The notes beneath the pieces are model-generated. The model saw only the letters and a list, made by a program, of their open reading frames with translations, was not told the DNA's origin and made no database searches. DNA of 51,428 nt from positions 1-51,428 of IMG/VR virus record IMGVR_UViG_3300032213_002040; one strand, 5' to 3'. The translations under genes were made by a program, and so were the position numbers. Below are positions 8,327 to 51,428 of the stretch, one piece after another (within the stretch, counting starts at the first letter, position 1; the number at the start of each line of letters is the position of its first letter). Source of the stretch: a virus.

Positions 8327-8458
8327 ATGAATAAAAAAGCAAGTAAAAAATTAAGAAGATTAGCTGCTGCGATTGCAGTAAATAATAATCAAACACCAGA
8401 ACAAGCAAAAGTAATATACAAAAGATTAAAAGTAGTTCATAAATCAAATCCTAAATAA
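8327..8458 (+). CDS. Small basic protein (43 aa)
   Basis: Forty-three residues: MNKKASKKLRRLAAAIAVNN, then NQTPEQAKVIYKRLKVVHKS. Two amphipathic basic helices; no family recognised. It sits 1 nt after the previous gene and its TAA overlaps the ATG of the glycosyltransferase at 8458 (TAATG), which supports real, coupled translation. Confidence 0.6.
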   Translation: MNKKASKKLRRLAAAIAVNNNQTPEQAKVIYKRLKVVHKSNPK

Positions 8459-9903
8459 TGATAACATTAGAAAATGTTACAATAATCTGCATTGATACTG
8501 TTAATGTTGGAGAAGCTATAATTGCTTTAAAGAAAACACTTGAACAGGTAAAACCAACCAAGTGCAAGTTTCTTACGACATCTAATATTAAAATAGAAGG
8601 AGTTGAAACAATAATAATTCCAGAAATAAGAAGTGTTGATGAATACAGTAAATTTTGTATTAAAGAATTATATAAATACATTGATACGGATTTTGTATTA
8701 TTAATTCAGCACGATGGATATGTATTAAATGGTGAATTGTTTGATGAAAGGCTTTATTTGTATGATTATTGTGGTGCTTTATGGAATGAAAGAGATGGTT
8801 TAAATAATGGGAATGGCGGGTTTTCTTGGAGATCAAAAAAGCTATGCGAAGCACTGGGTAAGGATGAGATTATAGAAATATATACTCCAGAAGATGTTTC
8901 AATATGCAGAATATATAGAAGATATTTAGAAGGTAATTATGGTTTTAAATGGGCAACTGATGAAATAGCTGAGGGTTTTTCTTTTGAGTTAAAAGAACCC
9001 AAAAATAAAACATTTGGATTTCATGGTAGATTTCATCCAGAGTTTAAAGAAATAGTGGTAATTCAAAGAATGGGAGCTATGGGCGATGTTATTGGAGTTG
9101 AGCCAGTGTTAAGACATTTTTACGAAAATGGTTATAGAGTTGTTCTTCACACATTACCACAATTTAAAGAAATATTTAGGCAGCATTATTTTAAGATTGA
9201 ATTCTTTGACGAAATTGATAATAAAAGACTTCCTTATAAGTTTATTAACTTGGATATGTCTTATGAGTCTAACCCAAAAGAATTACATCTTAAAAGTTAT
9301 TATGAATTTGCTGGAATTAAGAATGGCATAATAAGAAACCCAAGACTTAGTCTTTATCAAAATTATAAAGCAGATATAAAGATATTTGAAAAATATTGCA
9401 TTATCCATGCAGACATTAGAGAACCATTTAGAAATATATATGATGTTAATTGGCCATTAATATGCAAAGATTTAAATAATAGAGGTTATTCTGTTTTTCA
9501 AGTAGGCACAAATGGATATGATATACCCGGAGCTATAAGGATAAATACACCATCTACACAATTTTTAATGTGGGTAGTGGCAAGTTCAGATATGTTTATT
9601 GGTATAGATTCTGGAATATCTCATATTGCTGCTGGGTTTAATATTCCATCAATTATTTTTTCAGGAAGTGTTGATTTAAGATATATTCATCCAAATATGG
9701 ATCATATAGTTTGGATACACAATCACGATAAAAAAGTATGTGATACGCCCTTTTGTTGGCATGATGCAATGGATGTGGTTGGTAAGCATTGTCCCGTAAA
9801 TGCAGTTAGGCCGCCTTGTACAAGATTTGATGATGATAATAAAATTTTAAATGCTATAAAAAAGATAACTTATGAACAAAGTTTGTGGGGTTCAGTTAAT
9901 TAA
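8458..9903 (+). CDS. Two-domain glycosyltransferase: DUF5672 plus GT9-like
   Basis: A 481-residue fusion. Residues 1-195 match DUF5672, a glycosyltransferase-like family: LIQHDGYVLNGELF at 82-95, YDYCGALW at 102-109, GNGGFSWRSKKL at 118-129. Residues 196-470 look like a GT-B heptosyltransferase (GT9): RMGAMGDVIGVEPV at 204-217 and the donor-site block FIGIDSGISHIAAGFNIPSI at 390-409. Near the end four cysteines (C428, C433, C445, C454) form a cluster like the iron-binding one of TibC-type protein heptosyltransferases. Sugar transfer is the expected activity; donor and acceptor are unknown. It is coupled to the gene before and overlaps the next glycosyltransferase by 32 nt. Codon use matches neighbours. 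Confidence 0.78.
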   Translation: MITLENVTIICIDTVNVGEAIIALKKTLEQVKPTKCKFLTTSNIKIEGVETIIIPEIRSVDEYSKFCIKELYKYIDTDFVLLIQHDGYVLNGELFDERLYLYDYCGALWNERDGLNNGNGGFSWRSKKLCEALGKDEIIEIYTPEDVSICRIYRRYLEGNYGFKWATDEIAEGFSFELKEPKNKTFGFHGRFHPEFKEIVVIQRMGAMGDVIGVEPVLRHFYENGYRVVLHTLPQFKEIFRQHYFKIEFFDEIDNKRLPYKFINLDMSYESNPKELHLKSYYEFAGIKNGIIRNPRLSLYQNYKADIKIFEKYCIIHADIREPFRNIYDVNWPLICKDLNNRGYSVFQVGTNGYDIPGAIRINTPSTQFLMWVVASSDMFIGIDSGISHIAAGFNIPSIIFSGSVDLRYIHPNMDHIVWIHNHDKKVCDTPFCWHDAMDVVGKHCPVNAVRPPCTRFDDDNKILNAIKKITYEQSLWGSVN

Positions 9904-10630
9904 AAATGGAGTTAAATATGATTATTGTTTTAAGGAGTCAATACAATCAATGCTTAATTGTTGCGACCAAGTAATTGTTTCTTACATACCGGGCGAAGAT
10001 AATACGTTAGAGGTACTAGAATCTATAAACGATGACAGATTGAAGATTTTACATTTAACTGAAGATGATTGGAATATGTATAATGATAAATACAGATTAT
10101 CATATTTAACTAATGTGGCTATTCAGGAAGCCGATAGACTGGGATTCCAATATATATTAAGCGTTCAATCGGACGAAGTTTTGCATGAAGATAGTTATCT
10201 TGCTGTAAGAAGGGCTGTTAATGATAATCATGAAGGTTATTTATGCACTAGGGTTAACTTATGGAAATCACCAGACCTTGAATTAAATGTACCACAAGAA
10301 AGATTGCCATGTAGTAATGAGGTTGTTAGATTAGCTAAAATATCATACAGGGCATTTGACGATGCTGAATCTTTATTTGCTCCGGGCATAGCAGACTATT
10401 TGGACGAAATTAAGATTATTCATTACGGATTTGTAAGAAAAAAAGAAGTAATGAAATCAAAAATTATAAATATGCAAGAAGGCGTATTTGGAATGGGGCA
10501 TCATGATCCAAAGTTAGATGAGGAAGAAATTTTTAATCCAGATTTATGGTTTGATCCATCTAAAGATTTAGTTCCTATAAATTTCAAGCATCCAGTTTTA
10601 ATACAAGACTGGGTAAATGAAAGGAAATAA
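9872..10630 (+). CDS. Glycosyltransferase, GT2-like (GT-A fold)
   Basis: A 252-residue protein with GT-A features: VQLIKNGVKYDYCFKESIQS and MLNCCDQVIVSY at the N-terminus, then AIQEADRLGFQYILSVQSDE at about 84-103, where SDE takes the place of the metal-binding DxD. The second half contains conserved aromatic and acidic residues (NLWKSPDLE, IHYGFVRKKEVM). Likely adds a sugar to a growing glycan or a protein. It overlaps the DUF5672/GT9 gene by 32 nt, so both are made together, and a bidirectional terminator closes the unit at 10634-10649. Confidence 0.72.
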   Translation: MNKVCGVQLIKNGVKYDYCFKESIQSMLNCCDQVIVSYIPGEDNTLEVLESINDDRLKILHLTEDDWNMYNDKYRLSYLTNVAIQEADRLGFQYILSVQSDEVLHEDSYLAVRRAVNDNHEGYLCTRVNLWKSPDLELNVPQERLPCSNEVVRLAKISYRAFDDAESLFAPGIADYLDEIKIIHYGFVRKKEVMKSKIINMQEGVFGMGHHDPKLDEEEIFNPDLWFDPSKDLVPINFKHPVLIQDWVNERK

Positions 10631-10633
10631 AAA

Positions 10634-10649
10634 AGCCCCCGAAGGGGCT
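10634..10649. terminator. Bidirectional terminator between convergent genes
   Basis: Stem AGCCCC (10634-10639) with GGGGCT (10644-10649), loop CGAA. On the plus strand it is followed within a few bases by TTCTTTTT; on the minus strand by a run of T (plus-strand A run 10628-10634). It serves the glycosyltransferase gene ending at 10630 and the reverse gene ending at 10667. Confidence 0.85.
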
Positions 10650-10666
10650 AACAGTTCTTTTTAATA

Positions 10667-10927
10667 CTATGCGTTAGCAGCAGTATTCAAAGTTGCAACT
10701 GTGTCAGCAGTGTAGAACTTCTGAGTTGGTTGGTTTAAACCCGTAGGTAAAACCTCAATTACAGAATTCATTGTTACACCACAAGCAACTACTCCATAAG
10801 CTGGAGTAATTAAAGCACCTTGAACTGAGAAGCTCACAGGTACACCTTGAGTTGCTGGAGTACCAGCAGCGTTGCTCAAATCGTAGGCATTTCTACGATA
10901 AATTGAGCTTAAAAAGCGTTGTGCCAT
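10667..10927 (-). CDS. Small reverse-strand protein, probably abundant (virion protein?)
   Basis: I take ATG 10927 (MAQRFLSSIYRRNAYDLSNA) as start; the longer frame to 10978 would run through the promoter. The 86-residue product is polar, beta-prone and lacks a signal peptide (GVPVSFSVQGALITPAYGVV, then GLNQPTQKFYTADTV). No named family. Codons resemble those of the capsid gene: Gly almost always GGT, Ala mostly GCT or GCA, Phe TTC in two of three, Asn AAC often. It has its own promoter (10968-10975) and a terminator, alone on the minus strand amid plus-strand genes. A decoration or cement protein would fit, as inference. Confidence 0.65.
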   Translation of the reverse strand: MAQRFLSSIYRRNAYDLSNAAGTPATQGVPVSFSVQGALITPAYGVVACGVTMNSVIEVLPTGLNQPTQKFYTADTVATLNTAANA

Positions 10928-10967
10928 TTTTGATTGTTTTTTTGATGAATAAATTGTTTTTGGCAAC

Positions 10968-10975
10968 CAAATATA
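10968..10975 (-). promoter_or_regulatory. -7 box TATATTTG for the small reverse gene
   Basis: On the minus strand TATATTTG matches TAnnTTTG fully; 19 nt upstream is TTTA (three of four matches to TTTG), inside the start of the divergent gene at 10982. The leader before ATG 10927 would be about 35 nt and A-rich. Confidence 0.6.
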
Positions 10976-10981
10976 CAAAAT

Positions 10982-11788
10982 ATGGAAGATGTAATAAAAT
11001 TTAAGACCTCAAGCCCAGCTGGCGACTTGTTATCAATGCTTGCTGGCATACAGCAATTGACCAAAGAAATAGGCAAAAAAGCTATTATTTATCAGCGTTT
11101 AAATATGACTGGAGTTGGTTATAATGGAGCTATTCATCCATTTAAAAATGATATAGGAGATGAGGTAGCTATGAATGAATATATGTTTCATGTTATGCGT
11201 CCTTTGCTTATCGAGCAAGATTATATTGAAGATTATATAATTTACGATGGGCAAGAATACAATTACGATTTAGACAAGGCTAGATTAGAAATATTTACCA
11301 ACCAGCCACATGGAAGCATAAATAGATGGATATTTTATGTCTATCCGCAAATGAGTTGTGATTTAAGCAAAGCGTGGTTAGATGTTCCTCAATCAGTTGG
11401 TAAAATTGAAAAGTTAATTATAAACTTTACTTACAGATACAGAAATAGCGTAATAGATTATTCTTTTTTGAGGAAATACCAAGATCATATTCTATTTGCA
11501 GGATTAAAAGACGAGTATGAATTTTTTAGCAACCAATGGAATTTAAGGATTGGGCATTTAGATGCGCCTGACTTTAAAAAAGTGGCTTATTTTATTAAGA
11601 ATTCTATTGGATTTTTGGGTAATCAATCTTCTTGTTATCAAATAGCTGAAGGTTTAAAAGCTCCTAGAATTCTTGAACTTTCTCCTGTAATGCCAAATGT
11701 TATTCCGTCTGGAGAAGGAGCTTTTGATTTTTATCATCAACAAGCTGTTGAATATTATGTAGAAAAATTTTTTAATTTAAAAAATTAA
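10982..11788 (+). CDS. GT9-like glycosyltransferase
   Basis: A 268-residue protein. The N-terminus KTSSPAGDLLSMLAGIQQLT resembles the GDxL loop of heptosyltransferase-type GT-B enzymes, and the C-terminal block IGFLGNQSSCYQIAEGLKAP followed by RILELSPVMPNVIPSGEGAF resembles their donor-binding half (small residue-rich loop, then a helix and a nearby proline turn). It is shorter than GT9 enzymes (usually 320-350), so part of the fold is reduced. Sugar and acceptor are unknown. The upstream gap of 55 nt carries a promoter only for the reverse gene. A GT call is moderately sure. Confidence 0.6.
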   Translation: MEDVIKFKTSSPAGDLLSMLAGIQQLTKEIGKKAIIYQRLNMTGVGYNGAIHPFKNDIGDEVAMNEYMFHVMRPLLIEQDYIEDYIIYDGQEYNYDLDKARLEIFTNQPHGSINRWIFYVYPQMSCDLSKAWLDVPQSVGKIEKLIINFTYRYRNSVIDYSFLRKYQDHILFAGLKDEYEFFSNQWNLRIGHLDAPDFKKVAYFIKNSIGFLGNQSSCYQIAEGLKAPRILELSPVMPNVIPSGEGAFDFYHQQAVEYYVEKFFNLKN

Positions 11789-11803
11789 TTTAATTTAGTG
11801 GTT

Positions 11804-12469: not shown

Positions 12470-12841
12470 ATGTCAGAAGAAAAATTAAAACAGCAAATAG
12501 CTTATTTAGAGGGGAAACTAGCTTACTACGAGCAGGATGGGCCGGCTAAGTTGTATTACAGCTTAATTCGTAAGTCAAACGAAATGGCCGAATTGCTTAA
12601 CAGAACAAGTTTGCTTAGTATTGAATTGGTGGATGCAAAGAACAAAGAGTTTGAAAGGTTACAGAAATTATGGACAGATGCAGGCTCTATTACCGCATCA
12701 ATCAAAGCTTTAGAAGTTTCAGCTGGAATTAATGTTGAGCCAAAAGAAGGCAAAAAAGAAGTGGCTCAAGTTATAAATAGGCCATTTACCCCAGAAAGTG
12801 TAGCGGATGCTGTGGGAGAAATTGCTGGAAGTAAAAAATAA
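12470..12841 (+). CDS. Putative small terminase subunit
   Basis: A 123-residue, mostly helical protein: EEKLKQQIAYLEGKLAYYEQ is a likely coiled coil; LYYSLIRKSNEMAELLNR and KEFERLQKLWTDAGSITASI are further helices; the tail (NRPFTPESVADAVGEIAG) is flexible. The call rests on size, helical build and position 2 nt before the large terminase; no HTH is obvious and family membership is not recognised. Small terminases bind the packaging site and stimulate TerL. Confidence 0.5.
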   Translation: MSEEKLKQQIAYLEGKLAYYEQDGPAKLYYSLIRKSNEMAELLNRTSLLSIELVDAKNKEFERLQKLWTDAGSITASIKALEVSAGINVEPKEGKKEVAQVINRPFTPESVADAVGEIAGSKK

Positions 12842-12843
12842 AT

Positions 12844-14895: not shown

Positions 14896-14925
14896 ATTTT
14901 TTTAATCGATTAGGCGAATATTTAT

Positions 14926-14933
14926 TATATTTG
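14926..14933 (+). promoter_or_regulatory. Promoter of the head operon (TATATTTG)
   Basis: TATATTTG, a full -7 match, lies in the 59-nt gap before the portal gene; the -33 region holds only T-rich sequence (TTTA at about 21 nt). The start of transcription would be near 14940, leaving a leader of only 15 or so nt to the TTG start at 14955. Confidence 0.6.
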
Positions 14934-35900: not shown

Positions 35901-36311
35901 GAATATCAAGAAGAAAAAAGATATGAAAGATTAGCTCAAGAAGCTGAAGCAGAATTCCTAGAGGAGCAAGCTAAATTAGAAGAAGAACTTAGAAAACCAT
36001 TGGACGAACAAATTGAAGGCGAAGCGTCTGAAGAACACATAAACAACTTAATAAAACAATATGAAGCAGAAATTAAAGGAGAAGATCAACAACTTAGACC
36101 CGAGAGTAAGGGAGAAGCTGTTAAAGAGATTAGCAGCAGAGAGGCTGGAGAAAAGGTTGCAAAAACAGAAGCCGAGTTAGCAAAAGACTACAAAGAGGTA
36201 ATTAGTAAGGCTAGTAAAAAAGCCAAAGAAAATGCCAAAAAAGACTTTGTAGATCGTAACTTTGATAGCATAGTAGCAAAATTAAAAATTCAAATAAAAT
36301 GCCCAACGTAA
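32928..36311 (+). CDS. Giant internal (polyvalent-type) virion protein 1
   Basis: A 1127-residue protein. It opens with the LPKGF repeats typical of phage polyvalent proteins (IQLPKGFKLDQG, KLPKGFTLE), then a central amphipathic and hydrophobic region (MMALLAIPVAGESAMVGEMY; AAFKLAHSGPKYLSSAAKNL) and very long Lys/Glu-rich helices. The last 300 residues are charged coiled coil. Such proteins are packaged and ejected. I recognise no enzymatic motif. It overlaps the ferritin-like gene by 13 nt. Confidence 0.6.
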   Translation: MPENDKIQLPKGFKLDQGAGQPEVKLPKGFTLETADVKKKVGGEESSLTELSSKGFSPEQISLLQTGTKPPKPVGKTGATTIIPTNITPDQKAYERELKRQDAAINTLKNTYSKKGLNFNEKSKRGQEQIAELLDKEINNDLTLVTGKDQKPYLVRGEGFLESAGRGILRSIIDPIESTKINFTNDAVELADLLDEKIKEEPNVPESAPTRVGGYLGELAGGLPKMMALLAIPVAGESAMVGEMYHNALANQRRVLYERGLQEGMDRTTAAQNAMKNAPITAIPDAIVGAALARGVGGKPAGAEIIPNAAKESFLKATGNGLKGVAKVSGIGGAAEFGRSKAEQQLGYNVTDAEAIENGLRGMGEYAIMDAAFKLAHSGPKYLSSAAKNLLSSVPKEVLEVAAEKYPDGKQTLEDVAKFTETKAKVQDFVPEEKVAAVAGLTEKADNLKLDIEALEEKKKALPPAIASKVDVEIADKNKEIKFYDNQIKKVVESKDITGIKEEIDDLTGLKAGEIPVEEYDLKNGDIITANIYGKQEKGKVIGVGTKRGEIVIDFIDENNNQRFVYADQVQNIERGQAEIDNLSSSQKARLNELLNKEELTQEDLAEISQLNKAKTEVKQIEAQFPETLKTEKYAVQEPSPEGVLQPEQERVRETGGERKRVEPSVKGKEIAKEGKQAKIDEKRTPQVKPLSEFKVGDKFVFATDKGGSEHTIVSIDNGIVKFKTKGSKEVSSASEIQRLGNDLALLKSDWNKGIRPNESELKGSRFKTKIKTTKEQINNLTKELLKVDYAGAEPKENPESAKDFYEDVARRYLENDIDIVKVVDDLHGGKDRLQEIINGVAPKKTYQEALKEKQEAEKKQTRQAAGEKAAVSRRIFDRVFKMDVPEDAEQIALRYLADGGKVSKAAVDEAYGSVKRAALNTGRRELLSEEVKSKDFVGGKETLDEIAHKLWEESGQRVPESEIKDRLMAEIGNNNTRLEAAEAYLEKYDFEYQEEKRYERLAQEAEAEFLEEQAKLEEELRKPLDEQIEGEASEEHINNLIKQYEAEIKGEDQQLRPESKGEAVKEISSREAGEKVAKTEAELAKDYKEVISKASKKAKENAKKDFVDRNFDSIVAKLKIQIKCPT

Positions 36312-36814
36312 AAAATTTATTAAGCCCTAGCATGAAGAAGGGCTTGCAAAAAGCAATATACCTAGAACTGTATCAATCTAACTTATGGAAACATACAGCT
36401 AACCAGTTACAAAGATTAGGTTATTTTGGTAGTCAAAAGTATTTCTTAGCGGAAAGCGCAGAGGAATTAACACATTATCAAATATTAGTTGATTTTATCA
36501 ATGATATGGGTGATGTGGCGGAAGTTCCAAAAATTGACGAAGCAGACGATACAATTGATTCATTAGCTACAGCATTGCAGGTGGCTTATGATATGGAGCT
36601 AGAAGTGTATAATCAATACAAAAAATTATATGCTGAAGCTGACGAAGAAGATTGCGCTGTTGCAATTTTCTTACAACAATTTGTTACTATCCAAGTAAAA
36701 GCCGTTGGCGCTTACGGAGATTTAATCAGTCGTTATAATAGATGCGGAACAAACGAAGCTGCTATCTTAGAATTTGATGAGTATTTATCAGAACAAAATA
36801 ATACATATAAATAA
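36299..36814 (+). CDS. Ferritin-like protein
   Basis: A 171-residue four-helix-bundle protein of the ferritin type: LYQSNLWKHTANQLQRLGYF, FLAESAEELTHYQILVDFIN, the D-x-D loop, then ALQVAYDMELEVYNQYKKLY and FLQQFVTIQVKAVGAYGDLI. Ligands visible: E23, the EExxH set (E55, E56, H59), E102 and Q132. The helix-D glutamate expected in FV-x-EQ is Ile131 here and the following EE pair is lost, so the iron-oxidation site appears incomplete. It lies between two giant virion proteins, overlapping the first by 13 nt and coupled to the second (TAATG), so it may be carried in the particle. Fold fairly sure; iron role unsure. Confidence 0.72.
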   Translation: MPNVKNLLSPSMKKGLQKAIYLELYQSNLWKHTANQLQRLGYFGSQKYFLAESAEELTHYQILVDFINDMGDVAEVPKIDEADDTIDSLATALQVAYDMELEVYNQYKKLYAEADEEDCAVAIFLQQFVTIQVKAVGAYGDLISRYNRCGTNEAAILEFDEYLSEQNNTYK

Positions 36815-41150: not shown

Positions 41151-41663
41151 ATGCGCCAATTAAAAGATAATCCAAACTACTTAGTAACCCTTGATGGTAA
41201 GGTATTCTCTTTACATTCAATGAGATTTTTAACTCTTGCAGAAAAGAATGACTATATGTATGTTAAAATTGGATCAAAAATGCATAGAGTGCATAGATTA
41301 GTGGCGCAAACTTATTTACCAAATCCAGAAAACAAAGCAACAGTAAATCATATTGATGGGAATAAATTAAATAATTTAATTTGTAATTTAGAATGGATGA
41401 CACAATCTGAAAACATTCAGCACGCTTGTGATACAGGACTTAGACCTGTAAGCGAATTAATGCGTGAAAATGGCAGAAGGATGAAAGGTAATTTGCTGAC
41501 AGGAAGCAATCCCCATACAATGAAATTAGTTTTAAACGAAGAAACTGGGATTTATTATGAAAGCGCAACTGAGGCAGCAGAATCGATAGGGATGAAACCC
41601 AAAAATTTTTGGAGAAGGTTGAATGGAGATATGAAAAATAATACAAACTTTAAATACGTTTAA
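41151..41663 (+). CDS. HNH homing endonuclease with NUMOD-type domains
   Basis: A 170-residue free-standing nuclease. Residues 1-40 (NPNYLVTLDGKVFSLHS) are a NUMOD4-like DNA-binding unit; residues 44-90 (MHRVHRLVAQTYLPNP, NHIDGNKLNNLICNLEWMTQ) are an HNH_3 nuclease with the N-H-I-D-G and N-L-E-W signatures; residues about 120-170 (GIYYESATEAAESIGMKPKN) are a NUMOD1-like helix-turn-helix. Such genes copy themselves into intergenic sites of related phages. It sits between the hinge protein and the main fibre, 4 nt after one stop and 2 nt before the next start. Confidence 0.85.
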   Translation: MRQLKDNPNYLVTLDGKVFSLHSMRFLTLAEKNDYMYVKIGSKMHRVHRLVAQTYLPNPENKATVNHIDGNKLNNLICNLEWMTQSENIQHACDTGLRPVSELMRENGRRMKGNLLTGSNPHTMKLVLNEETGIYYESATEAAESIGMKPKNFWRRLNGDMKNNTNFKYV

Positions 41664-41665
41664 CT

Positions 41666-44600
41666 GTGGCAATACAAGGTCTTTTTTCAGGCGATTTAAA
41701 AGTAAGGGGACTAAACGGAGTTCTTATTGCTAGCGATGGTATCGTTACAGCAACGAGTTTTTCTTCTGGTTCAAGCGGTACTAGTGGATCGAGCGGTTCT
41801 AGTGGTACAAGTGCTACTAGTGGAACTTCTGGTACAAGTGCAACAAGTGGAACTAGTGGTACAACTGGAACGAGTGGTAGCAGTGGAACTAGTGGCACGA
41901 CTGGATCAAGCGGTAGCAGTGGTACAACTGGTACTAGTGGTTCTAGTGGCACAACTGGCACAAGTGGATCTAGCGGCAGTAGTGGAACTTCTGCAACTGA
42001 TGGAACTGGTGGTACAAGTGGTACGACTGGAACTAGCGGCAGCAGTGGATCAAGTGGAACAAGTGGTACAGATGGTACAGGGGGAACGAGTGGAACAAGT
42101 GGCACAAGTGCTACGTCAGGTACGAGTGGAACCAGCGCAACTAGTGGAACCAGTGGTACTTCTGGCACCAGTGCGACAAGTGGCACAAGTGGTACTAGCG
42201 GCGTTCAAGGTGATAGATATGCCACAACTTCAACAACAATATTTACATTGGGTAATGCAGGAACAATAACTGTAGGTACTCAATTGGCATATACGGTAGC
42301 TCAATCTATTATTGTGGTTTATGATGCTAATAACTTCCAAGAGTGTGAGGTTACAGCTTATAATCCATCAACAGGCGTTTTATCTTTTGCAGCTCCTACA
42401 AGAACAGTAGGTAGTGGAACTTACAGCACATGGTCAGTGAATCTGGATGGTGCGAGTGGAGGTGATGGATCTAGCGGTACGAGTGGAACTAGTGGCTCCG
42501 CTGGAACGAGTGGAACTACTGGAACTAGTGGTTCTAGTGGATCTAGTGGAACGACTGGCACAAGTGGATCAAGTGGTAGCAGTGGCACTTCTGGCACAAG
42601 TGGTCGTAATGGTATTGATGGTTCTTCAGGAGCTTCTATTGCAAACTGGTATGGTGCGTTTTCAAGTACAACTACTCAAGTGGTTACTGGTGCGAATCAG
42701 GCAACAGCAATAACTTATAATCATGAAGAATTAGCAAATGGTATAGCTTATGCAGGTTCTCAAATCACAGTTCAACATACTGGTATCTATGAAATAGCAT
42801 ATTCTTTACAAGTAGAAGTTACTTCAGGTGGTGCAGCAGTAAACGTAGATATTTGGTTAAAAAAGAATGGTGCAAATATTATCAGAACAGACTCAATCTT
42901 AGGATTACAATCTAACTCTGGTAAGCAATTACCATACGTTTCAATTATAGATAGCGCAAACGCGAATGATTATTACGAAGTTTATTTCTCATCAACATCT
43001 GCCAATACTCAAATCACAGCAGTAGCAGCAAATGGAATTCACCCAGCAGCACCCTCAATCATTACCAACATCAAACAAATTGGTATTGCTGTAGGTACAA
43101 CATCGGGAACTTCTGGTACGAGTGGTGTTAATGGTTCTTCTGGTATGACTGGTAGTAGTGGTTCGGCTGGTTCATCTGGCACCTCTGGTACAAGTGGTAT
43201 TGATGGATCAACAGGTTCTTCTGGTTCGGCTGGATCGAGTGGTACAAGCGGTTCGAGTGGAACTACTGGTACAAGTGGATCGAGCGGTACGAGCGGTACG
43301 AGTGGCACAAGTGGTACGAGTGCAACTAGTGGTACGAGTGGTACGACTGGAACTTCTGGAACAAGTGCGACTAGTGGAACGACTGGTACGAGTGGTAGTA
43401 GTGGTACATCAGGTAACGCAACGACTTCAGCGAGAGCGGTTCAGACTTATACTTCAACAGCAGGACAAACTACATTTACTGTAACGAATGGTTATAATTT
43501 AGGAATGGTAGATGTGTTTGTGAATGGAGTTAAATTTGTGAATGGTGTAGATTACACAGCAACAAATGGTACAACAGTGGTATTGACAGATGCATTAACT
43601 GCAAGTCAAATTGTGGAGATTGATAATTACTTGACTGCGTTTTTACCAACCAATGCTCTTAGAACAATAACTACTTTTACTGCGACTGCTGGTCAAACAA
43701 CATTTAGTGTTACATATACTCAAGGATTAATAGATGTTTATTATAATGGTTCTTGTTTAGCTCAATCAGAATATACAGCTATCAATGGTACAAGTATAAT
43801 ATTAGCAACTGCTTGTCAAGTAAATGATATAGTAGTAGTATATGCTTATAACTATTCAGTAGGAGCTTTTAGTGGAATTGGTGGATCTGGTACAACTAAT
43901 TATGTTTCTAAATTTGCATCTTCAAGTACGATTGGTAATAGTCAAATCTTTGACAACGGAACTAATGTAGGTATAAGTACTGCAACTCCAAGTCAAAAAT
44001 TAGAAGTTAATGTTACTTCTCAAGATGATGGGGTTAGAATAACTTCGTCATCTTCTAAACCAACATTAAGATTTTATTCAAGTGCCGCTAATTCATCTAA
44101 TAGAAACTGGGCTATTAGTCCTAATGGACAAAATTTTGGAGATTTACAAATATGTACAAGTGCCGCACAGAATGGCGACCCAACCGCAGCAGATAGATTA
44201 ACAAGATTAATTATTACTAATACTGGTCAAGTAGGAATTGGAACAACTACTCCAAATGATTTATTAGAAGTAAGAGGTGGCTTTATAAGATTATCTGCAA
44301 CGGCAGGTAATGGGCCACAATTTAATTTATATTCAAATGGACAAACAAGTAATCATGTTACTTTAGCACAAGGATTTGCACTTGCAACAGATAATGTAGG
44401 ATATTTATATAATAGGGCTAATTCAGATTTTGTTTTTGGAACTAATAATACTGAAAGAATGCGAATTCAGGCTGATGGAACAATTTTAGCTGGTACAACT
44501 AATGACGGTTTTTTTAATGGTAGTATTCAAGGTGTAGGTTTATTTGGTTCAAATGGATTTATTGCAGCTTCAAGAAATGGAAGTTCTACTGCATTTTTTA

Positions 44601-44986
44601 ATAGATATACATCTACTGGCGATGTAGTTAATTTTAGGTATGCTGGTAGTAATGTAGGTAGTATTTCAACAAATGGCTCAACTGTTACTTTTAGTGGTAA
44701 CGCAGTATCAGATGAAAGATTTAAAGAAAATATTAAACCAATTGAAAATGCTTTGGATTCTATAAATAAAATTGAATTTAAAACATTTGTTTATAAAAAT
44801 AATCAACAATTTAGCGCGGGCGTAACTGCACAACAATTACAAACAATTGAAGAATTGTCAAAATATGTAATTGACGGAATTGACGAAGAATCTTATAAAG
44901 CGGTTGATTACAATGCAATAATTGGTTATTTAGGCAAAGCTATCCAAGAGTTAAAACAAGAATTAGACGAATTAAAACAAAAGTAA
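41666..44986 (+). CDS. Tail fibre with Ser-Gly-Thr repeats and S74 auto-chaperone
   Basis: An 1106-residue fibre starting at GTG 41666. Order: attachment segment (1-32), SG-T/S/A repeat block 1 (about 33-178), a beta domain with AQSIIVVYDANNFQECEVTA, block 2 (about 261-324), a C1q-like jelly-roll region (ITVQHTGIYEIAYSLQVEVT), block 3 (about 480-585), two short TFTATAGQTTF-type beta repeats, a shaft with GIGTTTPNDLLEVRGG and ERMRIQADG, and a C-terminal peptidase_S74 chaperone (VSDERFKENIKPIENALDSI) that probably cleaves itself before that Ser. The trimeric fibre should bind the host surface. Block 1 alone is over 140 residues of triplets. Confidence 0.85.
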   Translation: MAIQGLFSGDLKVRGLNGVLIASDGIVTATSFSSGSSGTSGSSGSSGTSATSGTSGTSATSGTSGTTGTSGSSGTSGTTGSSGSSGTTGTSGSSGTTGTSGSSGSSGTSATDGTGGTSGTTGTSGSSGSSGTSGTDGTGGTSGTSGTSATSGTSGTSATSGTSGTSGTSATSGTSGTSGVQGDRYATTSTTIFTLGNAGTITVGTQLAYTVAQSIIVVYDANNFQECEVTAYNPSTGVLSFAAPTRTVGSGTYSTWSVNLDGASGGDGSSGTSGTSGSAGTSGTTGTSGSSGSSGTTGTSGSSGSSGTSGTSGRNGIDGSSGASIANWYGAFSSTTTQVVTGANQATAITYNHEELANGIAYAGSQITVQHTGIYEIAYSLQVEVTSGGAAVNVDIWLKKNGANIIRTDSILGLQSNSGKQLPYVSIIDSANANDYYEVYFSSTSANTQITAVAANGIHPAAPSIITNIKQIGIAVGTTSGTSGTSGVNGSSGMTGSSGSAGSSGTSGTSGIDGSTGSSGSAGSSGTSGSSGTTGTSGSSGTSGTSGTSGTSATSGTSGTTGTSGTSATSGTTGTSGSSGTSGNATTSARAVQTYTSTAGQTTFTVTNGYNLGMVDVFVNGVKFVNGVDYTATNGTTVVLTDALTASQIVEIDNYLTAFLPTNALRTITTFTATAGQTTFSVTYTQGLIDVYYNGSCLAQSEYTAINGTSIILATACQVNDIVVVYAYNYSVGAFSGIGGSGTTNYVSKFASSSTIGNSQIFDNGTNVGISTATPSQKLEVNVTSQDDGVRITSSSSKPTLRFYSSAANSSNRNWAISPNGQNFGDLQICTSAAQNGDPTAADRLTRLIITNTGQVGIGTTTPNDLLEVRGGFIRLSATAGNGPQFNLYSNGQTSNHVTLAQGFALATDNVGYLYNRANSDFVFGTNNTERMRIQADGTILAGTTNDGFFNGSIQGVGLFGSNGFIAASRNGSSTAFFNRYTSTGDVVNFRYAGSNVGSISTNGSTVTFSGNAVSDERFKENIKPIENALDSINKIEFKTFVYKNNQQFSAGVTAQQLQTIEELSKYVIDGIDEESYKAVDYNAIIGYLGKAIQELKQELDELKQK
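41762..43420 (+). repeat. Ser-Gly-Thr coding repeats, three blocks
   Basis: Blocks at about 41762-42201, 42447-42638 and 43105-43420 are built of 9-nt units coding S/T-G-T/S/A. At the DNA level the units use many synonymous codons (AGT, AGC, TCT, TCA; GGT, GGA, GGC; ACA, ACT, ACG), so the protein is repetitive but the DNA is degraded as a repeat. Reading other frames gives long spurious open frames. Confidence 0.88.
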
Positions 44987-44987
44987 A

Positions 44988-46427
44988 ATGCCATCATTAA
45001 ATACAAAACTAGCCACAGCACCAAACGTATCGGCAAATTATGTCCTAAAAGCAACAACAAGCACTACTATAGGTAATAGCTTAATATTTGATAATGGAAC
45101 TGCTATTGCAATAGGTAATGGTTTATCATCAGCAACACCACAATTAGGATTAATAGAAGCTACCGATGGTAGTGGTACTAATATAGCAGGTGCTGAATTA
45201 AGATTACAAGGTGGTCAAGGAACAGGAACAGGAGCTGGTGGAGCTTTAACATTCTATACAAGTGCTGCTGGTTCTAGTGGTAGTTCTACTAATAATGCAT
45301 TGGAAAGAATGAGAATAGTTTCAAATGGCAATGTAGGGATTGGAACAACCAATACAACTGCAAGGTTTAATATTCAAGCATCTGCGAATTTTGAAACTCC
45401 AACTTTAGGTGCTGCAACTGGTACTATGGGCTATTTATCTGCTAATGGTCTTTATGGAATGTACATAGGAATTGGTAATAGTGGTAATACTTGGTTACAA
45501 TCACAAAGAAACGATGGAGCAACTACTGCATATAATTTATTATTAAACCCTAATGGTGGTAATGTAGGAATTGGTACAAGTAGTCCAGCAAACTATTTTA
45601 CTACTACTTTAACTATTGATGGTTCATCTTCTCAAGGTATAATGTTTAGAGCAAGTGGAACTGATAGAGGATTCTTATTTCAAGATGGTAGCTTTATTCA
45701 ATTAGGCTCAAATGCTGGTGGTGTAATATTTAAGTCTAACGATACCGAAAGAATGCGTATTACAAGTGGGGGTATAATTTATGCTTTAAATAATGGTGTT
45801 GATGCAAACTACCAGCCAATGATTGGAGGAATGTATAGAGATAATACTAATGAAACTAATCTAATCCTAACGGCTGTTTCATCAGCAGCTTCTCAATCTG
45901 GATTTAGATTTGATGTTTCCAATGGTGCTGGTTCTACTGGTAGAACTACATCAATGACAATTAATAGGTCAAGTGTTACTATTGTTGGTTCATTATCAAA
46001 AGGTTCTGGTTCATTTAAAATTGAACATCCTTTAGACAGTAAAAAAGATACGCATCATTTAGTACACTCATTTGTTGAATCTCCTCAAGCTAATAATATA
46101 TATAGAGGTAAAGTACAACTTGTAGATGGCAAAGCAGAGGTTAATTTAGATGAAGTTTCTACAATGACAGAAGGTACATTTGTACTTTTAAATAGAGAAA
46201 TTCATACTTACACATCTAATGAAACAGATTGGTATGCAGTAAGAGGAAATGTAATTGGCAATATATTGCATATAGAATGTCAAAATGAAGAATCTAATGC
46301 AATTGTATCTTGGTTAGTTATTGGAGAAAGACAAGATAAGCACATGATGGATACTGAATGGACAGATGAAAATGGTAAAGTAATAGTAGAACCATTAAAA
46401 CAAATTATAACCACAGAACAACAATAA
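44988..46427 (+). CDS. Tail fibre 2, shaft repeats with non-S74 C-terminal domain
   Basis: A 479-residue fibre. The N-terminal half repeats shaft motifs (ERMRIVSNGNVGIGTTNTTA, NGGNVGIGTSSPANYFTT, TERMRITSGGIIYA) also present in its neighbours. The C-terminal 140 residues begin with GSGSFKIEHPLDSKKDTHHL, then VHSFVESPQANNIYRGKVQL, a family found at the ends of tail and surface proteins, unlike the S74 domain of the two flanking fibres. It follows the first fibre by 1 nt. Likely a receptor-binding fibre; the specificity is unknown. Confidence 0.75.
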   Translation: MPSLNTKLATAPNVSANYVLKATTSTTIGNSLIFDNGTAIAIGNGLSSATPQLGLIEATDGSGTNIAGAELRLQGGQGTGTGAGGALTFYTSAAGSSGSSTNNALERMRIVSNGNVGIGTTNTTARFNIQASANFETPTLGAATGTMGYLSANGLYGMYIGIGNSGNTWLQSQRNDGATTAYNLLLNPNGGNVGIGTSSPANYFTTTLTIDGSSSQGIMFRASGTDRGFLFQDGSFIQLGSNAGGVIFKSNDTERMRITSGGIIYALNNGVDANYQPMIGGMYRDNTNETNLILTAVSSAASQSGFRFDVSNGAGSTGRTTSMTINRSSVTIVGSLSKGSGSFKIEHPLDSKKDTHHLVHSFVESPQANNIYRGKVQLVDGKAEVNLDEVSTMTEGTFVLLNREIHTYTSNETDWYAVRGNVIGNILHIECQNEESNAIVSWLVIGERQDKHMMDTEWTDENGKVIVEPLKQIITTEQQ

Positions 46428-46452
46428 ACTCACTTATTAATAGATAAAGAAT

Positions 46453-47595
46453 ATGGGTAAGACTTTTTCAACAGGACTACTAACAAACGGTTTATGGCAA
46501 GACGCATCTAATAACATAGGTATAGGTGGCTCTCCTTCTGGTAGCTTTAAATTAGAGGTTACTGGTGCATCTAAGATGAGTGGCTTTTTAGGTGTTAATG
46601 GTAGCCCAGCTACATCATTCCCATTTGAGGCATATATCAATAGTTCTACTGCTTATTCATCTACATCAAGAGGTAATGTGATGAGAGTATATAATTCTAA
46701 TACTGGTGCTAATATTTTTGCAGGTATAGAATTAGGTGGTGCTGGAACTGCTAATGATGGATTAGCTGGATTAAACGCAGTAGTAACTGGTAGTGGTAGT
46801 GCTGCTTTAACTTTTTATACAAGAGATGGCGGAACTTTTGCTGAGAGATTAAGAGTAGCTGCGAATGGTAATGTATCACTTGGTACGGACTCACCAACAA
46901 ATTATAGTGGTTATACTACATTACACATTAACGGAAAAAGTGGTGCTGCTGGTGGATTATTGAGGCTAACTGCATTTGATAATAGTTCAAGCGTTAATAT
47001 TTATGCTGCTAATGGTATAAATTTTAATACAACATCCGCAGTACCTTTTATATTTCTTACTCAAGATACCGAAAGAATAAGAATTACCTCTGCTGGTCTT
47101 GTTGGTATAGGAGTTTCAAATCCAAGTTCTGTTTTGGAAGCTAATGGAGATATTTGTACTGTTGGTTCAAACAGTTCTTTATCATGGGCAAATAGAAGTG
47201 GAAGTGGTAGATTTTCATGGTATGCACCAACTGGAAGTTATACATATTTATACAACTTAGGCAATATTGGTAATTTTAATATGTCAAGTGGTGTTTATAC
47301 TGCCACATCAGACATTAATAAAAAGAAAGATTTTGAAGAATCAAATATTGGTTTGGATGCAATAATGAGTATAAAGCCAATGTTGTATAGAATGAAAAGT
47401 GATAATGAAAATGCTGAAAAACAATTAGGTTTTATTGCTCAACAAGTTCAACCTTTTATACCACAAGCATACATGGAAGATGGAGAGGGAGAAGATAAAT
47501 TTATAGGTTTAACAGATAGACCAATTATAGCAGCTTTAGTTAAAGCAATACAAGAATTAAACGCTAAAGTATCAGCATTAGAGAATAAATCCTAA
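46453..47595 (+). CDS. Tail fibre 3 with S74-type auto-chaperone
   Basis: A 380-residue fibre. N-terminal attachment (MGKTFSTGLLTNGLWQDASN), shaft repeats (AERLRVAANGNVSLGTDSPT, TERIRITSAGLVGIGVSNPS), then a C-terminal S74 region: TSDINKKKDFEESNIGLDAI, KPMLYRMKSDNENAEKQLGF and IAQQVQPFIPQAY, with helices for trimerisation and likely self-cleavage before the Ser. It is the last plus-strand gene, converging on the minus-strand glycosyltransferase with an 8-nt gap and no clear terminator. Confidence 0.82.
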   Translation: MGKTFSTGLLTNGLWQDASNNIGIGGSPSGSFKLEVTGASKMSGFLGVNGSPATSFPFEAYINSSTAYSSTSRGNVMRVYNSNTGANIFAGIELGGAGTANDGLAGLNAVVTGSGSAALTFYTRDGGTFAERLRVAANGNVSLGTDSPTNYSGYTTLHINGKSGAAGGLLRLTAFDNSSSVNIYAANGINFNTTSAVPFIFLTQDTERIRITSAGLVGIGVSNPSSVLEANGDICTVGSNSSLSWANRSGSGRFSWYAPTGSYTYLYNLGNIGNFNMSSGVYTATSDINKKKDFEESNIGLDAIMSIKPMLYRMKSDNENAEKQLGFIAQQVQPFIPQAYMEDGEGEDKFIGLTDRPIIAALVKAIQELNAKVSALENKS

Positions 47596-47603
47596 ATTTG
47601 TAG

Positions 47604-49652
47604 CTACAAGGGTAGTTTGTCTATAACCATTTGAGCTGTTATTGAGGTTTGACACTCAAACATTCTTGTTGTATTCTTGTGATTTGGGCAAAAAAGATAG
47701 TCCCCAGCGTCAAAACGCACATCTGGTTTATTCCAACAAGCATGGCATACTTTATGGTTATAAGGGCGGATGCAACTGAATTCATGATCTTGTTCACTAA
47801 ATCCAGCTATCATAACTACTTCTTTACCTAATGACCACGCAAGCCAGCTAAGGCCGCTACTAAGTCCCAAAAAAAGTTCAGAATGATAAATAACAGACAT
47901 GGTATTCTCTATGCTTGTATCTTCTAATTGGTAGCAATTATTGAATGGATTGCGTTCTTTTGATACATTAATGACTTTATAGCCCCTTTCTACCAAAAAG
48001 TCTATAACTTCCTGCCACGAGCTTTTAAGCCAAAATTTAAGCCCCGCAGTGCTATTTGTGGCTATTGTTATGTATTTGCCATACATATTGGGCTTTTCTT
48101 CAAATTTTACCTTTGGTTTAATCTCACGATAGTCCAAGCCTAAGATATTGCTCGCTGATTGCTGAAGTGGTATAGTGTTGCATAATACCGGCTCTTTATT
48201 TGAATCCCAATGCCATCCCAAGTTGTATAAGGCGTAACATCCTGTAACATGACCGGGTTCTACCAATTCAAGCTCAGGATAGTCTAGTATTTTATTCCAA
48301 AAAGTGGACACTACCACCTCGCATTTATGCTTATTTTTAAATTCTAAGCAGTATGGTATCCAAGCCAATGTATCACCAATTGCTTTACTATCTATGGAAA
48401 TAAACACACGCTTACCTTCCAAGTCCAGCGTATTGCTATAGATTAACTCCCCGTCTTGATATACCTTCGCAGTCCATTTTGTATAATATTGCCTGTTAAG
48501 TTTTACCCAATGATTTGCTTTTATGGTATTGGTATAATGACATTCGCCTTTTTCATCAAAGAACTTAACCAAGAAATCGCTATCAGATATACCTTTAATT
48601 TCCAAAAAAGGTTGACTAATAAAATTTTGGGTAATTTGCACAGATTGTTTTCTAATGGGAAACTTTAGGATAGCATCATAGGCTTTTTGGTGATCAAGGG
48701 CAAACCTTCTTGAGTTATTGCTATTTGGTATCTTGTAGTCCCTTGTAATCGTATTTAAATCGGTTTGTAGCGGCTTTATGTATTTATCCAATGTTCCTTC
48801 ATAAGATGGTAAATTATTGGCTACAATAGGCAAACCAACCTCAACAGCATGGCGTATGGATAGTGGTGAACATTCATTGGTAGATGGGAAGATAAAAATA
48901 TCAGCTGCCTGCAATAAGGTATCAATGTCGCTTCTTTCTCCAAGTGCTTTAAAGTTTGATGGCAAGTCCTTGATTAACTCCTCCCAGTAAAACTGAAAGT
49001 TAGATGCCATGTTCCCAGCCACCACAAAGTCAATTTCCGGATATTTCCGCGCAATAGCAATTGTTTCTTTTTGGTTTTTTTGCGGAGTCCAAAGCCCAAC
49101 CTGTAAAGCAGTTTTTCTATCTAAAGAAAAGCCAACTTTCTTCTTAGCCTCCAATCTCATTTCAGCAGTTACTTTTTTTTCTTCTATTGGGTATTGGATG
49201 GTAAAGTAACGAGAATCCATGTCCGAGTATAAATTTTCATGGAACGGAGTGCAAAAAGCATACAAGTCTGGATGGTAAACTTTATCAGTATCAGGATTAA
49301 ATATGTTATCATGTGGCGTTTCCACAATCCTATAAGACCTATCGTTAGAATACAAGGCAGTTGCAAGTTCCTTTGGTAACCTTTCCGCCACATCTTCAAT
49401 ATGAACTATATCTGGCTTAACTTCATTAATTATGTCCATTACTCGCATCTTACTCTCTCCAGCTTCATAAAACCTTTCGCCAAGTAAATCTACTATCTGA
49501 TTTCTTTGTACCACATAAGCAGCTCCATGAAAGTTAAGCTCAATGCAATGTACTTCTACATCCGTATGTGTCAGTAAACTTTGTATCCTTTTAAGGGCAA
49601 ACATTGGTGCGCCCGATGTGCTAAGGTGCAATTCAAGTAGTAATAATTTCAT
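47604..49652 (-). CDS. Glycosyltransferase fusion: GT4 plus TibC-like O-heptosyltransferase
   Basis: A 682-residue, two-enzyme protein. Residues 1-330 are a GT4-type GT-B enzyme with ALQVGLWTPQKNQKETIAIA at 182-201 and the E-x10-E donor motif PSTNECSPLSIRHAVEVGLP (E260, E271). Residues about 415-682 match the protein O-heptosyltransferase type (TibC/Aah): VFISIDSKAIGDTLAWIP at 416-433, FLGLSSGLSWLAWSLGKEVV at 594-613 and a Cys cluster C636-x2-C639-x15-C655-x11-C667, analogous to the iron-binding cluster of TibC, which decorates autotransporters on Ser. A phage copy next to Ser/Thr-rich fibres suggests it glycosylates virion proteins (inference). Its start overlaps the nuclease gene by 20 nt. 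Confidence 0.8.
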   Translation of the reverse strand: MKLLLLELHLSTSGAPMFALKRIQSLLTHTDVEVHCIELNFHGAAYVVQRNQIVDLLGERFYEAGESKMRVMDIINEVKPDIVHIEDVAERLPKELATALYSNDRSYRIVETPHDNIFNPDTDKVYHPDLYAFCTPFHENLYSDMDSRYFTIQYPIEEKKVTAEMRLEAKKKVGFSLDRKTALQVGLWTPQKNQKETIAIARKYPEIDFVVAGNMASNFQFYWEELIKDLPSNFKALGERSDIDTLLQAADIFIFPSTNECSPLSIRHAVEVGLPIVANNLPSYEGTLDKYIKPLQTDLNTITRDYKIPNSNNSRRFALDHQKAYDAILKFPIRKQSVQITQNFISQPFLEIKGISDSDFLVKFFDEKGECHYTNTIKANHWVKLNRQYYTKWTAKVYQDGELIYSNTLDLEGKRVFISIDSKAIGDTLAWIPYCLEFKNKHKCEVVVSTFWNKILDYPELELVEPGHVTGCYALYNLGWHWDSNKEPVLCNTIPLQQSASNILGLDYREIKPKVKFEEKPNMYGKYITIATNSTAGLKFWLKSSWQEVIDFLVERGYKVINVSKERNPFNNCYQLEDTSIENTMSVIYHSELFLGLSSGLSWLAWSLGKEVVMIAGFSEQDHEFSCIRPYNHKVCHACWNKPDVRFDAGDYLFCPNHKNTTRMFECQTSITAQMVIDKLPL

Positions 49653-50550
49653 TATTTTCTTTTTTTAAATATTCCCAGATGTACCCACCGGCATGACTAT
49701 AATTTTTATTTTTCTTCGCACAAAGGCTAATGCTTGTTGCGCTTATGTTTAATTCGGCGGCAGCTTCTTTTATTGAATCAAAATTTTTAATTATATTTTT
49801 ACTTATTCTATCTATTTGAGCAATTTTTTTGGATAATCTATTTTTCGCACCTCTATTACCCCAATTGCTATTTTTTTCGCCTGTTCTATTTCTAAGTTTA
49901 ATTCGTGTTTCTTCACTAATTATTTTATTTTTATGAATAAAAGATATTTTTTTCCTTGTTTCTTCTGACATTATCCTGCCAATTCCTCTGCCTTTATTCT
50001 TTTGAGATATTTTTAATTTATGTTCTTCAGATAATTTTTTGCCTTTTTGTGCATTAGATTTATTTATCCTTGTTTGTACAAAAGAATTAACTATTTCTTG
50101 ACTTTTTTTCATTTTTAAAATAGAATCTGAAGACATTTTTTTACCCATATTGCCTTTAGATATATTTTTTCTATGTTCTTCTGTTAATTTTTTACCTAAA
50201 AAAGATTGAGTATGTTTATTGTTTTTTCTCATTTTCTCCCTTGTCTGTTCAGAAGGATAGCATCCTAATTGTCCATCTCCTCCGTCAGTCAAATTGCATA
50301 AATTCCCTAATCCTAAATCTTTTCTTCCATAAAATTTAATTAATTCTTTTTCCATTAAGCAAGCTTCTTCCCAAGTAAGATTATCTTTTACTATAGAACC
50401 TGTAAATCCATGCTTTTTAACAATGTTTTTCCAAAATCTATTTCTACTTAATGTTTGATAAACTCTTTTTTTAGTCCCAATTCCAACATAAAAAACACTT
50501 TCGTGATCGTTTTGAATATCGTTTCTACGATGAATGTAAACGTATGCCAT
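49633..50550 (-). CDS. GIY-YIG homing endonuclease with NUMOD3 repeats
   Basis: A 305-residue free-standing homing nuclease. The GIY-YIG domain is near the N-terminus: AYVYIHRR at 2-9, VFYVGIGTKKRVYQ at 19-32 (R29 catalytic type) and a Glu in EEACLMEKELI. Residues about 95-225 hold NUMOD3-type repeats (LTEEHRKNISKGNMGKK; LSEEHKLKISQKNKGRG; MSEETRKKISF). The C-terminus (IKNFDSIKEAAAELNISATS) is an IENR1/NUMOD1-like HTH. It lies between two glycosyltransferase genes, overlapping the start of the downstream one by 20 nt; its own start is 11 nt after a strong RNA hairpin. Confidence 0.87.
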   Translation of the reverse strand: MAYVYIHRRNDIQNDHESVFYVGIGTKKRVYQTLSRNRFWKNIVKKHGFTGSIVKDNLTWEEACLMEKELIKFYGRKDLGLGNLCNLTDGGDGQLGCYPSEQTREKMRKNNKHTQSFLGKKLTEEHRKNISKGNMGKKMSSDSILKMKKSQEIVNSFVQTRINKSNAQKGKKLSEEHKLKISQKNKGRGIGRIMSEETRKKISFIHKNKIISEETRIKLRNRTGEKNSNWGNRGAKNRLSKKIAQIDRISKNIIKNFDSIKEAAAELNISATSISLCAKKNKNYSHAGGYIWEYLKKENNEIITT

Positions 50551-50561
50551 AATAAAAAATA

Positions 50562-50654
50562 CCCAGTAATAGATGACTTACCCCTTATCACATAGTGAAT
50601 GGGCATCTAAAACTGGGCAAAAAAGTTATTATTATCATGTAATAAAGGGTAAGT
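50562..50654 (-). promoter_or_regulatory. Structured RNA element before the GIY-YIG gene
   Basis: On the minus strand, reading leftward: CCCAGT (50617-50612) pairs with ACTGGG (50567-50562); TAGATG (50609-50604) with CATCTA (50575-50570); CCC (50603-50601) with GGG; TCAC (50598-50595) with GTGA (50591-50588). The stem is followed by TATTTTTTATT and then the ATG, so it could end transcription or hide the start. A competing pairing exists: ACTTACCC (50654-50647) with GGGTAAGT (50583-50576), extendable by three pairs. Two mutually exclusive folds suggest a switch. Confidence 0.6.
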
Positions 50655-50658
50655 ACCG

Positions 50659-51428
50659 CTAAGATACTAAATATTCTATGAATTTATTTATGTTTTCTAT
50701 GTTTTTTTCGCCATGCCAAAAGTAATGGTTACTTTTTAATGGAACTTTCTTCCACTCACCCATAAAATATTCTTGATGCCTATATTCTAGTTTATCATAC
50801 AAACCATTTATGTAACAATAAGGCAAGCCATTGAATTGCTTTTTCTTCCATAAAAGGCAGTTTGCAATTGACTCCTCATTGAAGGGAGCATACCAGCCAT
50901 TGTCTTTTAAAATCTTGGGATGTTGTGTCATCCATGCCCATTCTTCTAACCATTCAATACAATTTTGACCAGCAACAAAATAACCCGTTTGTCTATACTT
51001 TTGTCTAACTGATTGATCTATGCCAAATAATTCACAAGCCGGTGCCTCCAATGTACCACTTAAATCTTCTCTGGTTACAGCCCCACCTCGCCCATTAATG
51101 ATTAAATAGTCATATATGCCCTCTACAAAGTAAGGGTAATCAGAATTGCGTGGAAAATTGTCAAACATTTCATTAATTGAGGCGTTTGCTACGCTATCTG
51201 TGTCCACATAAGCTACCACTTCAGCAAACTTTTCTAATGCGTGCTTTACTATCTTAGGGCGTTCTATTAATAGCTTATAAATCTGTTTATCTTCTCTATT
51301 AATGTACTCGTTTCTTTTCTTTAAATGCTTTACATCACAATCCCATCTAATGGTGGTGGTATTTTCTACCTGTACTTTATTGTCCGAATTAAGTAGATAA
51401 ACATAAATAGGATAAGTGCTAAAATTTC
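50659..51428 (-). CDS. Glycosyltransferase, GT-A with DxD motif (partial, cut by window end)
   Basis: The frame stays open to the right edge, so the N-terminus is missing; a GTG at 51219 is not the true start. Visible residues begin NFSTYPIYVYLLNSDNKVQV, pass TTTIRWDCDVKHL and ERPKIVKHALEKFAEVVAY, and reach the DxD motif in VAYVDTDSVAN, which binds the metal and nucleotide sugar. Further on are YFVEGIYDYLIINGRGG and WYAPFNEESIANCLLWKKKQ. At least 256 residues are present. It would add to the five-gene glycosylation set; acceptor unknown. The homing nuclease and the structured RNA lie directly downstream on the same strand. Confidence 0.7.
   Translation of the reverse strand, partial: NFSTYPIYVYLLNSDNKVQVENTTTIRWDCDVKHLKKRNEYINREDKQIYKLLIERPKIVKHALEKFAEVVAYVDTDSVANASINEMFDNFPRNSDYPYFVEGIYDYLIINGRGGAVTREDLSGTLEAPACELFGIDQSVRQKYRQTGYFVAGQNCIEWLEEWAWMTQHPKILKDNGWYAPFNEESIANCLLWKKKQFNGLPYCYINGLYDKLEYRHQEYFMGEWKKVPLKSNHYFWHGEKNIENINKFIEYLVS

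Follow-up and report, generated by a model that had tools for sequence, protein, structure and literature searches.

A TibC-type glycosyltransferase gene paired with a Ser/Thr-rich collagen-like fibre gene in an environmental phage: a probable virion-fibre O-glycosylation module

Background

Few examples of phage virions bearing glycans are known. In the linear virus record IMGVR_UViG_3300032213_002040, analysed over its whole length of 51,428 bases (the window), a gene for a TibC-type glycosyltransferase lies close to, and convergent with, a gene for a tail fibre rich in Ser/Thr collagen-like repeats. Does the phage put sugar on its own fibre? An initial annotation had proposed that the phage decorates its own tails by means of five glycosyltransferase genes. 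From sequence comparison we propose, at a probability of about 0.68, that the phage sugar-coats this fibre itself, by means of a virion-fibre O-glycosylation module at 41666-51426.

The fibre and the transferase

The module and its neighbouring genes comprised the following features.

41666-44986, plus strand: collagen-like tail fibre with an S74 intramolecular chaperone, the proposed substrate (PF01391, 1.2e-33; PF13884, 1.2e-12)
41768-42217, plus strand: Gly-X-Y run 1, 50 triplets, mainly GTS/GSS
42449-42637, plus strand: Gly-X-Y run 2, 21 triplets
43106-43420, plus strand: Gly-X-Y run 3, 35 triplets
44988-46427, plus strand: tail-fibre protein, its gene lying between those of the collagen-like fibre and the transferase (phrog_9942, 2.9e-7)
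46453-47595, plus strand: tail-fibre protein with an S74 chaperone, encoded convergently to the transferase (phrog_1980, 7e-23; PF13884, 8e-11)
47604-49652, minus strand: two-domain glycosyltransferase, GT4 (N-terminal) and TibC-type (C-terminal), core of the proposed system (PF00534; TIGR04414; TibC chain 4rap)
49633-50550, minus strand: homing-endonuclease-like gene (NUMOD; PF07460, 1.5e-8), between two module genes and outside their function
50659-51426, minus strand: C-terminal 255 amino acids of a larger protein, a putative sugar-modifying or sugar-transfer enzyme and partner of the TibC-type enzyme, truncated by the contig end

The three Gly-X-Y runs of the fibre added up to 318 residues (106 triplets), of which 108 were Ser, 78 Thr and none Pro, in agreement with the more than 300 residues of S-G-T triplets annotated initially, and Peptidase_S74 was found at the C-terminus. 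Collagen and tandem-repeat matches arose independently, indicating that the repeat was not a chance feature. Among triplets at viral TibC-type loci, Y was Ser in 76% and X was Thr in 64%. TibC heptosylates Ser, not Thr (PMC4358343), and this, together with the predominance of Ser at Y, favours Ser as the acceptor; the acceptor is probably Ser/Thr of the fibre.

The product of 47604-49652 (682 amino acids) contained a GT4 domain (PF00534, E 9e-14), followed by a C-terminal domain matching TIGR04414 at E 8.6e-72 and 242.1 bits (cut-off 200). The TibC crystal chain 4rap aligned with the product at E 2.4e-48, confirming the TibC-like domain recognised at first annotation. TibC and AAH, the characterised relatives, modify proteins (PMC4358343). 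TibC uses Asp110 as its base and Thr226, Lys230 and Trp305 to bind the donor; an iron is held by four Cys, and the active dodecamer depends on a hairpin thumb (PMC4358343). Equivalents of Asp110, Thr226, Lys230 and Trp305, and of all four iron-finger Cys (C339, C342, C358 and C370), were present in the phage product and were also kept in most viral homologues.

A virus-type branch of the enzyme

Arg286 of TibC touches the adenine of ADP-heptose, and its mutation abolished or strongly cut heptosylation (PMC4358343). This position was Thr in 82/86 viral rows and Arg in 92/98 bacterial rows; likewise the thumb was short in 82 of the 86 viral rows and 29 residues long in 88 of the 98 bacterial ones. 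The 86 viral rows had been sampled with a viral profile, and members found through the repeat alone were examined as a check. Most of these shared Thr286 and the short thumb, but several kept Arg286 and a thumb of 31 residues, and thumbs of 31-33 residues were seen in some. Loss of both features in all viral members was thus rejected, and the change instead marks a major virus-type branch, not every viral member. In a quick tree, the viral rows and eight rows from metagenome-assembled genomes (MAGs) shared one side of a branch with a Shimodaira-Hasegawa-like approximate likelihood-ratio test (SH-aLRT) value of 99.

No autotransporter match was obtained among the window proteins scanned with Pfam, PHROG and NCBIfam, and the neighbour of the enzyme was the collagen-like fibre. 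With this partner, Thr at position 286 and a shortened thumb, the enzyme was not classed as BAHT proper; it is probably a divergent virus-type relative of that family, predicted to function similarly.

Co-occurrence of enzyme and repeat

Samples of 80 loci each (terminase, viral TibC-type, bacterial TibC-type and 50659 homologues) were taken among the matches listed. A terminase search of environmental viral contigs gave at least 80 loci, mostly 84-97% identical, so close relatives were plentiful. Sixteen contigs found through the terminase measured at least 56 kb, and 15 of them held both TIGR04414 and collagen repeats. The exception with neither, G015 (59.9 kb; L025, L026 and L140), was a mirror-image duplication of one phage end, an assembly artefact. 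Gene order within the clade was fixed (g40077, g40595, the collagen-like fibre, in some cases further fibres or small open reading frames (ORFs), and then the convergent TibC-type gene), and the fibre was syntenic in all complete members. The conserved fibre-linked module was 47604-51426.

Viral contigs were then scanned with a profile of the TibC-type domain, and 80 loci out of a larger number of matches were inspected. Where at least 9 kb of downstream sequence was available, a Gly-X-Y gene was found downstream in 31/42 loci, in all cases convergent and 1.2-9.9 kb away, compared with 0/80 random 16-mer viral loci; the random loci were on average shorter (0.76 vs 1.27 Mb in total), which does not account for this contrast. 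Clustering at 70% identity split the viral loci into 15 clusters, 14 of which contained a Gly-X-Y protein. In the reverse test, viral records were selected solely by the repeat pattern GT[S/T], and TIGR04414 was detected in 18/47 of them vs 0/38 random records (Fisher p 5e-6); PF01391 alone was found in 3/38 random viral records. These results give comparative support to the link between repeats and transferases that the initial annotation had suggested: TibC-type enzymes and Ser/Thr-rich collagen-like fibres occur together much more often than chance allows, whichever of the two is taken as the starting point. The pair was also carried by Microcystis phage Mel-JY01 and huge phage LR756501; no Gly-X-Y repeat was seen in the stretch of LR756504 examined.

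At bacterial TibC-type loci, collagen-like repeats were found in 6/80, and four of the six (L337, L338, L339 and L343) belonged to the viral side of the tree. Three contigs filed as bacterial or archaeal MAGs (L339, L340 and L343, perhaps also L337) looked phage-derived, with structural-type genes and a virus-type enzyme. Several contigs of relatives (among L128-L137) stopped inside collagen repeats, so the repeats may break assemblies and hide an adjoining transferase.

Could the transferases instead modify the host surface (lipopolysaccharide (LPS), capsule or surface proteins) and exclude other phages, their nearness to the fibre reflecting a shared host-interaction region? This is the customary explanation of phage glycosyltransferases, as in pelagimyophages (PMC7029224), and GT4 domains are common in LPS and capsule synthesis. 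It does not predict that the enzyme specifically and convergently tracks Ser/Thr-rich repeat fibres in unrelated phages, or fit the protein substrates of TibC and AAH (PMC4358343) and the lack of TIGR04414 in the 38 random viral records. We consider it unlikely, though the strongest of the alternatives.

The 50659 partner protein and domain fusions

The GTG start listed for 50659 was wrong, since the ORF was open at its 5′ end over all 255 amino acids and truncated at the contig end. The protein had no family match in Pfam, PHROGs or NCBIfam, and its AlphaFold model (predicted local distance difference test (pLDDT) 42) gave no usable structural match. In relative L103, the N-terminal part of a 50659-type protein was methyltransferase-like (Methyltransf_23, 4e-5, under the cut-off). 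Of 80 viral homologues of 50659, 47 shared an ORF with the TibC-type domain and 74 shared a locus with it, and this fusion ties 50659 to the transferase system.

In L101 (12979-16449), L102 and L104, an FkbM methyltransferase, the 50659-type part, GT4 and the TibC-type domain were joined in one protein of ~1150 amino acids (domains verified in L101). A DegT-type sugar aminotransferase gene lay beside the TibC-type cluster of a 112-kb phage (L121, 18269-19423), hinting at amino-sugar glycans. Homing-endonuclease-like genes (HNH, NUMOD, GIY-YIG) at 41151-41663, 49633-50550 and 191-892 bordered or interrupted fibre and transferase genes.

An accessory cassette at 8458-11788

Three of the five annotated glycosyltransferase genes lay elsewhere in the window.

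8458-9903, plus strand: DUF5672 and GT9-like protein, first gene of the cassette, present in few relatives (PF18922, 4e-14)
9872-10630, plus strand: cassette gene with a GT2-like look only
10982-11788, plus strand: cassette gene, probable GT-B (heptosyltransferase-like) fold at low confidence (model with pLDDT 60)

The GT9-like C-terminus of 8458-9903 stayed below the cut-offs (PF01075, 19 bits of 22; TIGR04414, 27.6 of 200). No credible match to 9872-10630 was found in Pfam, PHROGs, NCBIfam or PDB, and 10982-11788 had no family match; the predicted fold of the latter resembled WaaF, WaaC and related chains in Foldseek (best E about 4e-4). Relatives of 9872, 10982 and 50659 gave chance-level Pfam matches only, at E up to 10. 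Of the five genes, 47604 and 8458 were borne out (the latter by DUF5672, with a sub-cut-off GT9-like C-terminus), 10982 was left with a low-confidence GT-B-like fold, and 9872 and 50659 had no family match.

The cassette filled the slot between the SSB and GroES-like genes in only 3/75 relatives having that slot, and two of these three also had methyltransferase-like genes inserted (one confirmed by Pfam). It was therefore rejected as the core of the system and is an optional addition; the five genes formed not one system, as first annotated, but two modules, an accessory one at 8458-11788 and the conserved one at 47604-51426. Such moron-like variation among relatives is what modification of the host surface would lead one to expect, and our confidence in any role for the cassette is lower than that in fibre glycosylation.

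The Thr-rich tail protein and other repeats

A second candidate substrate was encoded upstream of the fibre.

24026-29554, plus strand: tail structural protein of 1842 amino acids with ten Thr-rich runs, a possible second substrate (phrog_14478, 3.2e-59)

The ten runs, at 27473-29308, agreed with the Ser/Thr-rich character first ascribed to this protein, whose PHROG class was virion structural protein. The TibC-type enzyme might thus sugar another virion protein (this one, other fibres or small Thr-run neighbours), with the collagen-like fibre as a mere bystander. Small Thr-run ORFs often lay between fibre and transferase, and several viral loci without Gly-X-Y bore other repeat-rich Ser/Thr proteins close to the enzyme, either TPT-type mucin-like repeats (L162, L192, L206, L211 and L198) or GGGxN-ASG repeats (L191, L194 and L198). 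The Thr-run tail protein was found in the clade of the window only, whereas it is the collagen-like repeat that accompanies the enzyme in unrelated phages, and the Ser specificity of TibC (PMC4358343) does not support the annotated poly-Thr linkers as a glycosylation target. We regard another substrate as improbable, a little more so than action on the host surface. Since several loci without Gly-X-Y have TPT or GGGxN-ASG repeats in its place, the data suggest that the TibC-type enzyme follows repeat-rich Ser/Thr surface proteins generally.

The record and its likely host

Terminase, portal and structural genes of the window were identified by PHROGs. The terminase shared 28-29% identity with terminases from phages of Flavobacterium, Cellulophaga and Maribacter, a resemblance that makes a Bacteroidota host likely. 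No nucleotide neighbour of the window was found among the cultured phages searched. A Ferritin-like gene (36299-36814; PF00210, 2.5e-16) lay within the structural operon and is kept across the clade (55-89% identity).

Discussion

From the genes, domains, catalytic residues, synteny and co-occurrence observed, we infer an acceptor, a donor sugar, an order of steps and a benefit. Synthesis of the collagen-like fibre in the host cytoplasm would come first. From a host nucleotide-sugar, the TibC-type domain of 47604-49652 would then move sugar onto hydroxyls in the fibre's GTS/GSS triplets, those of Ser and perhaps of Thr. Extension or capping of the glycan would probably fall to the 50659 protein and to the GT4 domain that 47604-49652 also contains. 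These sugars would likely hydrate, stiffen and protect the proline-free rod, by analogy with TibA, whose stability and conformation are influenced by glycosylation (PMC3835316), and BclA, whose glycans are thought to aid hydration of its collagen-like rod (PMC8968730). The benefit may lie in a proline-free rod made stable by sugar, in protection or in receptor tuning.

Several observations weigh against glycosylation of the fibre by this module. Thr replaces Arg286 in the phage enzyme, and its thumb hairpin has 19 residues vs 29 in TibC, F265 and V266 being absent, so the activity of TibC cannot simply be transferred to it; loss of the adenine-reading Arg and of 10/29 residues round the dodecamer-forming hairpin makes donor and architecture uncertain. 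In 45 phage records gmhA (TIGR00441) had no match, and rfaE-like TIGR02199 had only sub-cut-off matches, in 5 of them. A TibC-type gene was not detectable in 29/47 repeat-bearing viral records, some being fragments, and some large enzyme-bearing records had no Gly-X-Y nearby. Finally, the counts and P-values ignore shared descent and are not fully independent.

The TIGR00441 and TIGR02199 results make it probable that the host supplies the donor sugar. With the adenine-contact Arg replaced, our confidence in heptose as the sugar is lower than that in fibre glycosylation. A stronger argument than the P-values is the reappearance of the pairing in separate clusters and in unrelated phages; because TibC-type gene and collagen-like fibre are found together in many unrelated phages, the phage probably sugars its own fibre. 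Of the initial reading, self-decoration of the tails, the part concerning the fibre gained support, from co-occurrence, convergent synteny and this recurrence, while the five-gene system, the poly-Thr target, heptose as the sugar and a purpose as shield or in receptor binding did not. Glycosylation of phage DNA (base hypermodification) as an anti-restriction measure, which some phage glycosyltransferases perform according to a passage in PMC12619734, is very improbable here, for TibC-type enzymes modify proteins, the linkage is to fibre and not replication genes, and family-library searches run over parts of the window revealed no base-hypermodification gene, no dedicated search having been made.

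A broader proposal, to which we would give not quite even odds, is that a widespread virus-type TibC-like branch, without the dodecamer thumb and the adenine Arg and fused with transferases and methyltransferase-like parts, coats Ser/Thr collagen-like fibres to yield a proline-free, sugar-stabilised viral collagen. If fibre glycosylation is true, enzyme and substrate would be named for an entire class of phages from the environment, a protein O-glycosyltransferase family would have been re-tooled by viruses, and a way in which proline-free collagen-like rods might gain stability would be suggested. Because the pair is present in the genome of a named Microcystis phage, fibre glycosylation can be put to a direct test.

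Comparison with known systems

In mycobacteriophages, phage glycosyltransferases act on the virion's own capsid and tail (Freeman et al. 2023, as cited in PMC12619734); those glycans are reported to be at the C-termini of capsid and tail-tube subunits, whereas the window implicates a collagen-like fibre and a TibC-type enzyme. Gly-X-Y repeats are known in phage tail-fibre-type proteins (PMC3368898, PMC7029224), from which the repeat of the window differs in being almost only Ser/Thr and in being paired with a transferase. No dedicated transferase for the known phage collagen-like fibres turned up in the literature searched, and no report linking TibC-type enzymes to such fibres was found in this mostly open-access literature. 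Mimivirus collagen and BclA of Bacillus spores are likewise collagen-like surface proteins bearing glycans, and mimivirus modifies its own collagen and hydroxylates it too (PMC8968730). In these systems the enzymes are others, and the phage repeat is without Pro and almost only GTS/GSS.

The closest likeness is to TibC/AAH (TIGR04414), with which the phage enzyme shares the domain family by score, the catalytic residues, the four iron-finger Cys and a gene position adjoining that of a repeat-rich Ser/Thr surface adhesin. It differs from them in Thr at the Arg286 position, a shorter beta-hairpin thumb, a separate branch of the tree, and fusion to GT4 and, in relatives, also to a methyltransferase-like part; and its partner is a collagen-like fibre, where that of TibC/AAH is an autotransporter.

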